Shown piece by piece: positions 23,689 to 35,282 of a stretch of DNA of 64,000 nucleotides. Each line of letters starts with the position of its first letter. Within the stretch, counting starts at the first letter, position 1. Both the position numbers and the translations under genes were made by a program. Origin of the DNA: Bryobacterales bacterium (lineage in GTDB: Bacteria > Acidobacteriota > Terriglobia > Bryobacterales > UBA6623); NCBI GenBank assembly GCA_028819215.1, contig JAPPMG010000096.1, positions 439,328-503,327 of the forward strand, in the 5' to 3' direction. The notes below the pieces were generated by a model. The model made no database searches. It saw only the letters and a program-made list of their open reading frames with translations, and was not told the DNA's origin.

Positions 23689-24111
23689 ATGCCTCACGGA
23701 TCGCTTGCCACGCCCGTGCGCGTGCTGGTCGCCAAGCCCGGATTGGACGGCCACGACCGCGGTGCCAAGATCATCGCCCGAGCATTGCGCGACGCTGGCA
23801 TGGAGGTCGTCTACACGGGGCTGCGCCAGACGCCGGAGCAGATCGTCAGCGCGGCAGTGCAGGAAGATGTCGAATTCATCGGCCTGTCGATCCTCTCGGG
23901 GGCGCACATGGCGATCGTGCCCCGCGTGCTGGCGTTGCTCGAAGAAGCGGACGCATCCGATATCCGCGTGATCGTCGGCGGCATCATTCCCGACACCGAC
24001 GCAGCGACGTTGCTAGACATGGGCGTAGCGCGGGTGTTCCAGCCAGGAGCTTCGCTCGAATCCATCGTCCACTTCTTGCGAGACCACCGACCATCGCGCG
24101 AGCTGGCCTAG
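23689..24111 (+). CDS. Methylmalonyl-CoA mutase-type cobalamin-binding subunit
   Basis: This 140-residue protein is a stand-alone B12-binding domain. The cobalt-coordinating histidine motif DGHDRG is near residue 25, followed by SILSG near residue 65 and the GG of VIVGGIIP near residue 103. This matches the C-terminal domain or small subunit of acyl-CoA mutases (methylmalonyl, isobutyryl or ethylmalonyl type), which rearrange carbon skeletons with adenosylcobalamin. The large catalytic subunit is not in this window. The gene lies 84 bases upstream of the DUF2520-panB-panC run. Confidence 0.92.
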
Positions 24112-24195: not shown

Positions 24196-25053
24196 GTGTC
24201 CCAAGGCTTGACTGTAGGAATCGTCGGCGCGGGCAGCGTCGGCCAGGCGCTGGCTCGCTTGCTGGCCGCCGACTTCGACGTGATCGTCACATCTCGCAGC
24301 GGCGCTCGTGCGGCAGCTGCCGTGGCCGGTATCGAAGCACGGGCCGCGCCCCTTGAAGCGCTCGCTCGCAGCAGCGATTGCGTGATCGTCGCGGTGCCTG
24401 ACAGGGCTGTCACGGAGGTCGCTGCGGTGCTGGCGCGATTCGATCTCGCGGCGGCTCTCCAGACAAGCGGAGCGCTGGGGCCGGCTAGTCTGGCAGCGCT
24501 TCGGAAGCGCGGTGTTCCATGTGCCATGTTCCATCCGCTGCAGACCTTTCCGACGCCGGACGCGGGAGCGCAACGGCTGCCCGGCTCGTTGGTGGGAATT
24601 TGCGGCGACGGCCCCGCCCTAGCTTGGTGCGAGCGACTGGCGCGAGCGCTGCGATGCAACACATTCAGCGTTGCGGAGGATCGGTTGGCGCAGTACCATG
24701 CAGCAGCGGTTCTGGCCAGCAACTGCGTGGTCGGCTTGGTCGACGCGGCGGCCGCCCTCATGGAGGCCGCGGGCGTCAAGCGCACGGATGCGCTGCGCGG
24801 CTTGCGCCCGTTACTCGATGCCAGCCTTGAGAATGCATCTACAATGGAAGCGACCCAAGCGTTAACCGGCCCCATAGCGCGGGGAGACGCGGTTACAGTG
24901 CGGCGCCACTTAGGCTCCATGAGGAATTCGCCGATACCGCTCGTCGGCCTCTACCGGGCTTTCGGGGAGTACCTCTTGGATCTGGCGCAGAGAAGCGGCC
25001 TGCCGGCGTCCGAAGCGGCCGCGGTGCGATCCGCGCTCAGCGAGGAATGCTAA
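24196..25053 (+). CDS. Rossmann-fold DUF2520 protein, candidate NAD(P) oxidoreductase
   Basis: This is a 285-residue protein from a GTG start. The N-terminus has a dinucleotide-binding GIVGAGSVGQAL, and CVIVAVPDRAV follows at the position of a Rossmann beta-strand. MFHPLQTF and the helical second half match DUF2520. The fold resembles pyrroline-5-carboxylate and ketopantoate reductases. It overlaps panB by 7 bases, so it is co-transcribed with the pantothenate genes. A ketopantoate reductase-like role would fit the position but is inference; the classic PanE sequence is not evident. Confidence 0.8.
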   Translation: MSQGLTVGIVGAGSVGQALARLLAADFDVIVTSRSGARAAAAVAGIEARAAPLEALARSSDCVIVAVPDRAVTEVAAVLARFDLAAALQTSGALGPASLAALRKRGVPCAMFHPLQTFPTPDAGAQRLPGSLVGICGDGPALAWCERLARALRCNTFSVAEDRLAQYHAAAVLASNCVVGLVDAAAALMEAAGVKRTDALRGLRPLLDASLENASTMEATQALTGPIARGDAVTVRRHLGSMRNSPIPLVGLYRAFGEYLLDLAQRSGLPASEAAAVRSALSEEC

Positions 25054-25886
25054 CCGTGCGCAACACCCACCAAGTTGTCAGAGCCCCCGACCTGCTGCGC
25101 ATGAAGCGCGTCGGCGACAGGATCGCGATGCTCACAGCGTACGACTTCACCATGGCGGGGCACCTAGACCGCGCCGGGGTCGACGTGCTCCTGGTGGGAG
25201 ACTCGCTCGGCATGGTCGTGCTGGGACAGTCCAACACGCTGTCGGTGACGCTGGACATGATCGCGCACCACACTGCGGCCGTGTCTCGCGCCGTTTCCAG
25301 AGCATTGGTCGTTGCCGACATGCCCTTCCTCAGCTGTCACGTCGGCGTGGCCGAGGCCGTGCGCGGCGCCGGGCGGCTTGTCAGCGAGGCCGGTGCGCAC
25401 GCAGTCAAAGTCGAGGGCGGCCACCAGGTGTTGGAGGTGGTGCAGCGATTGGCGGAAGCGGGTATTCCGGTCATGGGGCACTTGGGCCTCACTCCGCAGT
25501 CGATTCACCAGGTCGGCGGCTTTCGCAAGCAGGCGCGCGACGCCGACGAGGCGAGGAAGCTGCTCGAGAGCGCCCGCGCCTTGCAGGCGGCAGGTGCCTT
25601 TGCACTTGTGCTCGAGATGATCCCGGACAGGGTAGCGGCGGACGTGACCCAATCGCTGGAGATTCCGACCATCGGGATTGGGGCTGGCCCCTACTGTGAC
25701 GGGCAAGTGCTCGTTAGCCACGATGCGTTCGGACTCTACGACGAATTCACACCGCGCTTCGTCAAGCGATTCGCGGATTTGGGCCGACAGTTGCAGACCG
25801 CTGCCGAAGACTATGTCCGCGAAGTTCGCCAAGGCGAGTTCCCAGTCTCCGAAAAGAGGGTCCTGAGCGGCCAATATTCGGACTGA
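25047..25886 (+). CDS. panB: 3-methyl-2-oxobutanoate hydroxymethyltransferase
   Basis: This 279-residue enzyme makes ketopantoate from 2-oxoisovalerate and methylene-tetrahydrofolate, the first step to pantothenate. Recognisable segments are MLTAYDF, VDVLLVGDSLGMVVLG, the metal-binding VVADMPF, AVKVEGG, VMGHLGLTPQS, LEMIP and IPTIGIGAGPYCDGQVLV. The length is normal. The ATG at 25047 overlaps the DUF2520 stop, and panC follows after 5 bases. This is a tight biosynthetic operon with the likely order DUF2520-panB-panC-sulfatase. Confidence 0.97.
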   Translation: MLTVRNTHQVVRAPDLLRMKRVGDRIAMLTAYDFTMAGHLDRAGVDVLLVGDSLGMVVLGQSNTLSVTLDMIAHHTAAVSRAVSRALVVADMPFLSCHVGVAEAVRGAGRLVSEAGAHAVKVEGGHQVLEVVQRLAEAGIPVMGHLGLTPQSIHQVGGFRKQARDADEARKLLESARALQAAGAFALVLEMIPDRVAADVTQSLEIPTIGIGAGPYCDGQVLVSHDAFGLYDEFTPRFVKRFADLGRQLQTAAEDYVREVRQGEFPVSEKRVLSGQYSD

Positions 25887-25891
25887 GCCGG

Positions 25892-26755
25892 ATGGCAACC
25901 GAGCGCATCGAGCGCATCGCCCGGATCCGCGAGCGGGTCGCGGCCGCCAAGCGCCGCGGCCTGCGCGTGGGTTGTGTGCCCACCATGGGTGCGCTTCACG
26001 CCGCCCATACCGCCATGTTCGATCGGGCCCGCGGGGAGTGCGACCTAGTGGTTGCCACGATCTTCGTGAATCCGCTCCAGTTCGACCGACAGGACGACTT
26101 GCGCAGCTATCCCAGGGACACTGAGTCCGACTTGATCGCCTGCGAGCGCCACGGCGTGGACTTGGTGTTCGTACCGGACGTAGCTGAAATGTACCCGCGC
26201 CCTCCCGCGATGACCGTCGAGATCGAGGGCCTCGCTGACGGCTTGTGCGGCGCGAGTCGCCCGGGACACTTTCGCGGCGTCGCCACGGTCGTGCTCAAGC
26301 TGCTCAATTCGGTGCAGCCGGATATCGCGTACTTCGGCGAGAAGGACTACCAGCAGCTTGCCATAGTGAGGCGGCTTGCCGAAGACGCCTGCCTGCCGGT
26401 CGAAATCGCGAGCGTGGAAACGGTCCGCGAACCGGACGGTCTGGCGCTGAGTTCGCGCAATGTCCTGCTCAGTCGCGCCGAGCGGGCGTCGGCCCCTGCG
26501 ATCTTTCGCGCACTGCGGCGCGCCCGGAATGCGGTGGAGTCCGGCCAGCAAGATGCCGGGAAGGTTGTGGCCCTGGCCAGGCAGATTCTCGACGAGGAGC
26601 CGCTGCTCAGGGTGGACTACTTCGAGATCGTCGATCCGGACACGCTCGAGCCCGTGCGATCGATCCATGGCCCGGTTCGCATCATAGCTGCCGCGTTTTT
26701 CGGTTCGACGCGTCTGATCGACAACATTCGTGCAGATCCCGTGAAGGCGCGATAA
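25892..26755 (+). CDS. panC: Pantothenate synthetase
   Basis: This 287-residue ligase joins pantoate and beta-alanine with ATP. The HIGH-like GALHAAHTAMF (residues 33-43), VATIFVNPLQF, the pantoate-binding LCGASRPGHFRGVATVV, FGEKDYQQL and the KMSKS-like LSSRNVLLS are all present. One residue differs from common sequences: GALHAAH replaces the usual GxLHxGH at its glycine. The second histidine is kept, so activity is plausible. Its TAA shares a base with the ATG of the next gene (TAATG). Confidence 0.96.
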   Translation: MATERIERIARIRERVAAAKRRGLRVGCVPTMGALHAAHTAMFDRARGECDLVVATIFVNPLQFDRQDDLRSYPRDTESDLIACERHGVDLVFVPDVAEMYPRPPAMTVEIEGLADGLCGASRPGHFRGVATVVLKLLNSVQPDIAYFGEKDYQQLAIVRRLAEDACLPVEIASVETVREPDGLALSSRNVLLSRAERASAPAIFRALRRARNAVESGQQDAGKVVALARQILDEEPLLRVDYFEIVDPDTLEPVRSIHGPVRIIAAAFFGSTRLIDNIRADPVKAR

Positions 26756-29433: not shown

Positions 29434-30188
29434 GGGGATTATCAGGATAGGTTGACAAGCTGGCCCACATGCGGGAGTTCGCTAGCAAGCACAACTCCCG
29501 CTCGGGACTCTTGCGCAGCTGACGCCACTGGTCGCTGGACCGGTCGGCAAGTGGCTCCTGTACACGGAGCTGGTCGCGGACAGCGGGGTCGGCCACGGTG
29601 AGGGTCGAGGCGTCCGACGGCAGCACGGCGGTCGGCCAGACCGTGGGCTTCACCGTGTACACCGTGTATCGGGTGTCGGCCCAGCAGGCCCAGCATGAGG
29701 AGCCGTGGACCGTCACGTTCACCCGACACGGCGCGGAACCTACAGGCTCACGTTCGCCCGGAACGGGAACGTGCCGGAAATCCGCCTGCACCTGTTAGGC
29801 GAGCGGTGGAAGTCCATCCCGATGGGGGTCGACATCACCATCTACTCCGAGCAGCGGGTCGGAGCCATCCCGGGCTGTGCCCTCACGGTCGTGTCCCGGA
29901 CCGCGGCGAGGCATGGCAAGGGATGACCTTGGTTCGAGCATTCGCAGTGCCGGTAGTCGATGCAGCAAATTGTTGGCCTGTGGGCAAAGACGGTCGGCCC
30001 GAGCAGCGCTCCGGCTATCGTCGTCGAGGTGAAGAACTTCACCCCGAATGCGAAACACGACGGGCCCCAGGAGCGGGTCTTGCACATTTGATGAGACTGC
30101 GGCAAGCGTGCGGCGGCGCGGCTGGGCTGCGCCACGCGCCGGACTGTGCGGGAATCGGCCAGCTTGTCAACCTGTCCTGATAATCCCC
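29434..30188. repeat. 755-bp degenerate repeat with 32-bp inverted ends (left copy)
   Basis: The ends 29434-29465 and 30157-30188 are inverted copies with one mismatch, so the segment looks like a MITE or a decayed IS. Its right 406 bases (29783-30188) are repeated at 34943-35282. Frames inside are short and broken. Although some are conserved between copies, none is a recognisable transposase. The inner end is not followed by AACGAATC but by GGATTCG. Confidence 0.75.
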
Positions 30189-34942: not shown

Positions 34943-35282
34943 CGCCTGCACCTGCCCGGCGAGCGGTCGAAGTCCATCCCGATCGGGGTCGACATCACCA
35001 TCTACTCCGAGCAGCGGGTCGGCGCCATGCCGGGCTGTGCCCTCAGGGTCGTGCCGCGGACCGCGCGAGACATGGCAAGGCATGGCCCAAGTTCGAGCGT
35101 TCGCAGTGCGGGTAGTCGATGCAGCAATTTGTTGACCTGTGGGCAAAGACGATCGGTCCCGTCAGCGCTCCGGCCATCGTCGAGGTGAAGCACGTCACCC
35201 CGAACGCGAAACACGACGGGCCGCGCCACGCGCCGGACTGTCCGGCAATCGGCCAGCTTGTCAACCAATCCTGATAATCCCC
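34943..35282. repeat. Partial second copy of the degenerate repeat (right copy)
   Basis: This matches 29783-30188 along its length in the same orientation, with scattered substitutions and a deletion of roughly 65 bases near 35223. It keeps the 32-bp end at 35251-35282 but lacks the left half of the 755-bp unit. It ends 42 bases before the hom start codon. Confidence 0.88.

Follow-up and report, generated by a model that had tools for sequence, protein, structure and literature searches.

In the Bryobacterales bacterium of assembly GCA_028819215.1, a gene for a protein with the domain DUF2520 stands directly in front of panB and panC, and very probably encodes the operon's own ketopantoate (2-dehydropantoate) reductase, of the type known as PanG. 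The gene lies in a 64,000-nucleotide stretch of contig JAPPMG010000096.1, which is referred to here as the window. The assignment rests on the linkage of the gene to panB and panC, its co-occurrence with panB across the phylum, the pattern in which DUF2520 and PanE replace each other, and the relation of the protein to published PanG. A PanG function for DUF2520 proteins has already been linked in print and is hence not new. A preliminary description of this DNA had called the gene a candidate for a missing ketopantoate reductase, of which the proposed function is very probably right, while the word "missing" is wrong, as the genome carries two PanE-family genes and ilvC (discussed below).

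The pantothenate operon

The operon comprises the following features:

24196..25053, + strand: DUF2520 gene, proposed PanG-type ketopantoate (2-dehydropantoate) reductase; GTG start, 285 amino acids (open reading frame coordinates and Pfam)
25047..25053, + strand: overlap of 7 bases between the end of the DUF2520 gene (stop codon TAA, ending at 25053) and the panB start (ATG at 25047)
25047..25886, + strand: panB, ketopantoate hydroxymethyltransferase; ATG start, 279 amino acids (PF02548, 375 bits; TIGR00222, 325 bits, over cut-off)
25892..26755, + strand: panC, pantoate--beta-alanine ligase; ATG start, 287 amino acids (PF02569, 335 bits; TIGR00018, 309 bits, over cut-off)

The coordinates and the overlap given in the preliminary description are exact, the presence of PanB and PanC is borne out by their family matches, and the spacing between panB and panC is 5 bases. 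The operon had also been said to lack a recognizable PanE, and this holds for the whole window, as the sole TIGR00745 match inside it comes from the Rossmann region encoded by the DUF2520 gene (14.9 bits, below cut-off), and a whole-genome profile search placed no ApbA_C match there. In all five of the closest named relatives (L050-L054, 87-89% identity), a gene for a B12-binding domain (described below), DUF2520, panB and panC follow in the same order, and the overlap between the DUF2520 stop and the panB start is kept as well; chance is not a reasonable explanation of this gene order.

Species-level genomes yielded 448 relatives, and the wider neighborhood was compared in the best 80 of these, with flanks of up to 5 kb. 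Here, panB, panC or panD was found in the flanks of the DUF2520 gene in 56 loci, and a pan gene lies nearby in 41 of the 61 loci whose flanks reach 1.5 kb or more in each direction. The pan-linked loci span Acidobacteriota, Chloroflexi/Dehalococcoidia, Bacillota, Deltaproteobacteria and Bipolaricaulota, and relatives of this genome's two PanE-family proteins were found in none of the 80 loci (tblastn, E <= 1e-6). The linkage extends to plasmids, for which seven of 122 matching records were examined: an Enterococcus faecium plasmid carries DUF2520-panB-panC-panD, a Thermomicrobium roseum plasmid (NC_011961, 766037-768682; L045) carries DUF2520-panB-panC in an order identical to that of the window, and an Arthrobacter plasmid carries DUF2520-panC. 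No panB was found in viral contigs. Linkage is taken as a defining criterion of PanG by assumption of this analysis, and the window gene adjoins panB and panC.

Co-occurrence with panB and replacement by PanE

The distribution of the two reductase families was surveyed in 149 genomes of the phylum, 121 with and 28 without panB. PanE was called at E <= 1e-20 (67 genomes, 64 of them above cut-off), and the second halves of split matches, as well as secondary and sub-cut-off fragments, were excluded from gene positions. DUF2520 is present in 86/149 genomes, with 64 bits as the weakest match; all 86 have panB, and none of the 28 panB-less genomes carries DUF2520 (hypergeometric P 4e-13, with kinship among the genomes ignored). 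PanE occurs in 26/86 panB-positive genomes with DUF2520 and in 28/35 without it (Fisher 7e-7), a contrast that persists when each genus is represented by its majority (25/65 vs. 14/19, P 0.009). When the 4 kb to either side of panB on its contig are considered, DUF2520 is found in nine genomes (seven families) and PanE in eight (three families); no genome has both there, and DUF2520 is absent altogether from the eight in which PanE lies this close. PanE and DUF2520 thus tend to substitute for each other.

A closer sample consists of this genome and 40 relatives at the level of the order. A strong DUF2520 match (at least 97 bits) is present in 17 of the 41 genomes and lies beside panB in 15 of these, the two exceptions being poor drafts (G166, in 1030 contigs with panB on another contig, and G168, 64% complete, in which panB was not found). 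Altogether, panB was found in 25 of the 41.

Domains, fold and conserved residues of the DUF2520 protein

The C-terminal domain of the family, DUF2520 (PF10728), matches residues 133-258 with 105.1 bits against a cut-off of 25, and this is the only DUF2520 gene in the genome. Residues 3-114 contain matches above cut-off to the F420_oxidored, 2-Hacid_dh_C and Rossmann-like Pfam families. The AlphaFold model of the protein (mean predicted local distance difference test score 96.7) has the predicted fold of a two-domain reductase of the NAD(P) type; together with the Rossmann-type Pfam matches, this agrees with the earlier remark that the protein has a Rossmann fold like that of such reductases. 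The top solved folds are two DUF2520 structures with the same two-domain arrangement, namely TM1727 (PDB 2i76; 240 residues, Z 22.5, 26% identity, profile E 7.7e-42) and BF3122 (PDB 3d1l; 251 residues, Z 21.3, 22% identity, profile E 9e-38). The entry titles state no tested function for either, BF3122 being titled "putative NADP oxidoreductase". Arogenate/prephenate dehydrogenase, hydroxyisobutyrate dehydrogenase, imine reductase and ketol-acid reductoisomerase folds rank next, and profile matches to 2f1k and 4wji reach only to about residue 110 of the protein.

Two better-known families were considered for the protein and rejected. A PanE/ApbA shares with it a Rossmann NAD(P) domain and the proposed reaction; however, ApbA (PF02558) scores 14.7 bits against a cut-off of 22.2 and covers residues 7-46 only, ApbA_C (PF08546) does not match, and TIGR00745 reaches 15 bits against 141. 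Because only 77 N-terminal columns align with the PanE-family protein encoded on contig C22 (hhalign probability 29%), the DUF2520 protein is not a PanE. An IlvC resembles it in the related fold and in the Rossmann domain (KARI_N, 23.9 bits, above the cut-off of 20.6), but KARI_C (PF01450) is not among the 18 Pfam matches, TIGR00465 gives 15.3 bits against 226, and a separate IlvC is encoded in the genome.

Conservation was read from three alignments. Besides the start, G11, G13, G92, H113, Y167, H168, N213, G225, P226 and R229 are invariant in 25 diverse relatives, which were found by Pfam or tblastn and chosen by hand from 38 matches, so that this alignment is free of motif-search bias. In an alignment of 80 sequences (the window protein and the 79 of 80 loci that have an open frame with a match), R34 is kept in 71. 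The residues of the HPLQ and YHAAAV motifs are over-conserved in this alignment and in the structure alignment (60 of 65 selected loci plus the window, L051-L054 and L068 having been removed as near-duplicates), since these motifs had served to find the loci.

The results on gene order, protein family, fold, linkage, co-occurrence and conservation are observations; what the substrate is, which cofactor is preferred, that the cleft forms the active site and what individual residues do are inferred. In the proposed pathway, PanB would make 2-dehydropantoate, and the N-terminal Rossmann domain of the DUF2520 enzyme would bind NAD(P)H via G11-x-G13, with the conserved R34 suggesting a preference for NADPH. 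The C2 ketone of 2-dehydropantoate would then be reduced to (R)-pantoate in a cleft against the helical C-terminal part, before PanC would couple pantoate with beta-alanine. As candidates for the active site we propose H113, where the Rossmann part ends, together with Y167-H168, N213, G225-P226 and R229 of the helical part.

Relation to known PanG proteins

PanG, a ketopantoate reductase that is not a PanE, was reportedly named by Miller et al. in 2013 (J Bacteriol). FTT1388 of Francisella and EF1861 of Enterococcus faecalis are described as PanG proteins, and a DUF2520 protein of Corynebacterium ulceribovis has been tied to both (PMC4572677). The nomenclature is not uniform, as E. faecalis genes that complement Francisella are termed "panE copies" in one account (PMC13055272), while EF1861 is given as a PanG homolog in the other (PMC4572677), and the "PanG" (YkpB) of Bacillus subtilis is a PanE-family member, hence a different protein under the same name (PMC11487621). 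The window protein resembles PanG as a DUF2520-type protein of the pantothenate pathway, encoded in an operon without PanE. Its homology to the panB-linked DUF2520 protein of E. faecium runs over the full length (280 columns, E 1.4e-38) at 22-25% identity, and the E. faecium record does not name that protein PanG. The setting differs from that of PanG in that the window genome, of the Bryobacterales type, also carries PanE-family genes and ilvC, whereas panD was not found there.

Other candidate reductases in the genome

The genome is a draft of 5.86 Mb in 103 contigs and is 98.98% complete. That it might lack a PanE-family gene was considered and rejected, as two PanE/ApbA-family genes score above the TIGR00745 cut-off outside the window, one on contig C12 (198 bits) and one on contig C22 (212.7 bits over two pieces). 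The C22 gene (82968-83906) matches the subfamily model NF005089, "2-dehydropantoate 2-reductase", with 360 bits, and is flanked by alpha/beta-hydrolase-like and nadC-like genes (named by eye) rather than by pan genes; the best PDB relative of its product is 3ghy. This protein retains a K-x3-N motif (KLMGN), the lysine and asparagine of which we take to correspond to K176 and N180 of Escherichia coli PanE, with their catalytic roles; the C12 protein reads KLLMV at this place, with the lysine present and the asparagine absent. A clear panE elsewhere in the genome had been named in the preliminary description as refuting its proposal, and at the level of the family it is there (C12 and C22, besides one ilvC), yet the function is not refuted by this, because PanE-family genes are also present in 13 of the 28 genomes without panB in the phylum survey, and a match to this family hence does not prove ketopantoate reductase activity. 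Back-up activity in this genome may come from IlvC and a PanE-family protein.

Evidence against the assignment and alternative explanations

Several observations weigh against a PanG role of the DUF2520 gene. The linkage is incomplete: no pan gene was found in 24 of the 80 loci (20 of the 61 with flanks of 1.5 kb or more in each direction), the gene lies apart from pan genes on the plasmids of Legionella, Monoglobus, Ruegeria and Novosphingobium, and just 9/86 DUF2520 genes in the phylum lie beside panB. Seven panB-positive genomes of the phylum have neither DUF2520 nor PanE, the P values for co-occurrence take no account of phylogeny, and this genome has one ilvC in addition to its two PanE-family genes, the survey of ilvC being confined to this genome. 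In the window protein, position 164 is leucine, as in nine of the 80 aligned sequences, where 66 have lysine or arginine, and position 89 is glutamine, where 74 have histidine. The comparison with the characterized PanG proteins (FTT1388 and EF1861) is indirect, through the E. faecium operon relative.

Further counter-evidence comes from the order, in which nine panB-positive genomes have no strong DUF2520 match. For eight of these (G150, with a panB fragment, was left out), 6.5-9 kb around panB-panC were searched, with five DUF2520 loci compared alongside and open frames read in two of the eight, and no DUF2520 or PanE relative was found in any of them (tblastn, E <= 1e-5); therefore another enzyme must act there if the pathway works. 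In addition, 11 genomes (G161, G164, G172, G175-G179, G181, G183 and G188), eight of them panB-less, have a weak and divergent DUF2520 match of 24-53 bits, that of G181 (24.4 bits) being below the Pfam cut-off. This divergent group probably has another function. A general use of DUF2520 proteins as markers of pantothenate synthesis was accordingly rejected, as the 86/86 result does not extend to matches of 24-53 bits, and the DUF2520 domain alone is no marker of pantothenate synthesis because the divergent group occurs in panB-less genomes.

The alternative that survives best, with a little under an even chance, is that the DUF2520 enzyme is one of two or three ketopantoate reductases in the cell, together with the C22 protein and/or IlvC; it is compatible with the PanG assignment, so that the probabilities of the two overlap. 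It would fit the presence of a PanE-family gene in 26 of the 86 genomes with DUF2520 in the phylum, as well as the order-level panB loci just described, which in 8/8 cases show neither DUF2520 nor a PanE relative, and a precedent is found in B. subtilis, where three enzymes share this step (PMC11487621). Membership of the PanE family is, however, in itself no demonstration of activity.

It is unlikely, in comparison, that the C22 protein or IlvC is the organism's ketopantoate reductase and that the DUF2520 protein catalyzes another reduction. The scores of the C22 protein against TIGR00745 and NF005089 and its intact K-x3-N motif speak for this, as does the presence of IlvC, which can catalyze ketopantoate reduction in B. 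subtilis (PMC11487621) and in Buchnera (PMC4306246). On the other hand, the C22 gene lies away from the pan genes and its product has 3ghy as best PDB relative, the C12 protein lacks the asparagine, and PanE-family genes occur in 13/28 panB-less genomes, compared with 0/28 for DUF2520. That the DUF2520 protein is a reductase of another 2-keto acid or of an imine, and is kept beside panB and panC for regulatory or historical reasons, is highly improbable: its fold is common to imine reductases, pyrroline-5-carboxylate reductases and prephenate dehydrogenases, and a divergent DUF2520 group does exist without panB, but the linkage to panB and panC, seen in several phyla as well as on plasmids, and the way DUF2520 and PanE alternate beside panB argue against it.

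Beta-alanine supply

The canonical aspartate decarboxylase gene panD (PF02261) was found in none of the 41 order-level genomes, this genome included; a panD-like stretch stands beside the DUF2520 gene in L069, a locus titled Bryobacterales. Pyridoxal phosphate (PLP)-dependent decarboxylases of the PF00282 family are present in 36/41 genomes, with three in this genome (on C84, C38 and C41), none of which scores above the PanP cut-off. A PLP decarboxylase of this type replaces PanD in Desulfovibrio vulgaris (PMC10102598), and Rhizobium etli is known to obtain beta-alanine by breaking down uracil (PMC7142369). A literature search on panD or PanP in Acidobacteria returned no paper on point.

Other features of the window

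Upstream of the operon, 84 bases 5' of the DUF2520 gene, lies one further gene, identified by Pfam and NCBIfam:

23689..24111, + strand: stand-alone B12-binding domain gene, methylmalonyl-CoA mutase C-terminal type

The same position is occupied by such a gene in six of the 80 relatives (L050-L055) and in L164, and it is probably a neighbor outside the pantothenate pathway. Elsewhere in the window, a 32-base sequence occurs three times, at 29434-29465 (+), 30157-30188 (-) and 35251-35282 (-), with 0-1 mismatches to the common pattern, where chance would be expected to produce no copies. About 690 bases separate the first two copies, which are oriented towards each other and could be the ends of a small element. 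A 27-base form of the repeat was not found in 167 loci, which cover little of the remainder of this genome.

Implications for pathway annotation

Taken jointly, the observations allow a broader reading, which we regard as tentative and as somewhat more doubtful than not: DUF2520-type PanG would be the committed ketopantoate reductase in Bryobacterales and several other phyla, with PanE as an interchangeable substitute at panB and the ApbA/PanE paralogs of DUF2520 genomes serving other reactions, while canonical panD would have been lost throughout the order and the PanG-PanB-PanC operon would be fed with beta-alanine from a source other than PanD, possibly one of the three PLP decarboxylases found here.

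The annotation of these genes lags behind. In the seven plasmid records, they are labeled "Rossmann-like and DUF2520 domain-containing protein" or "DUF2520 domain-containing protein", if at all, and for the window protein the name PanG appears neither among the Pfam matches nor among the best 25 of 41 NCBIfam matches. Since DUF2520 genes are poorly labeled, pathway reconstructions may show a spurious gap at the ketopantoate reductase step. T. roseum is an instance in print, as its genome paper describes panE as not identifiable and expects the pathway to be complete (PMC2615216), yet a DUF2520 gene heads its panB-panC operon. With the proviso that the divergent DUF2520 group of panB-less genomes is kept separate, labeling panB-linked DUF2520 proteins as PanG would close this gap in many uncultured lineages.

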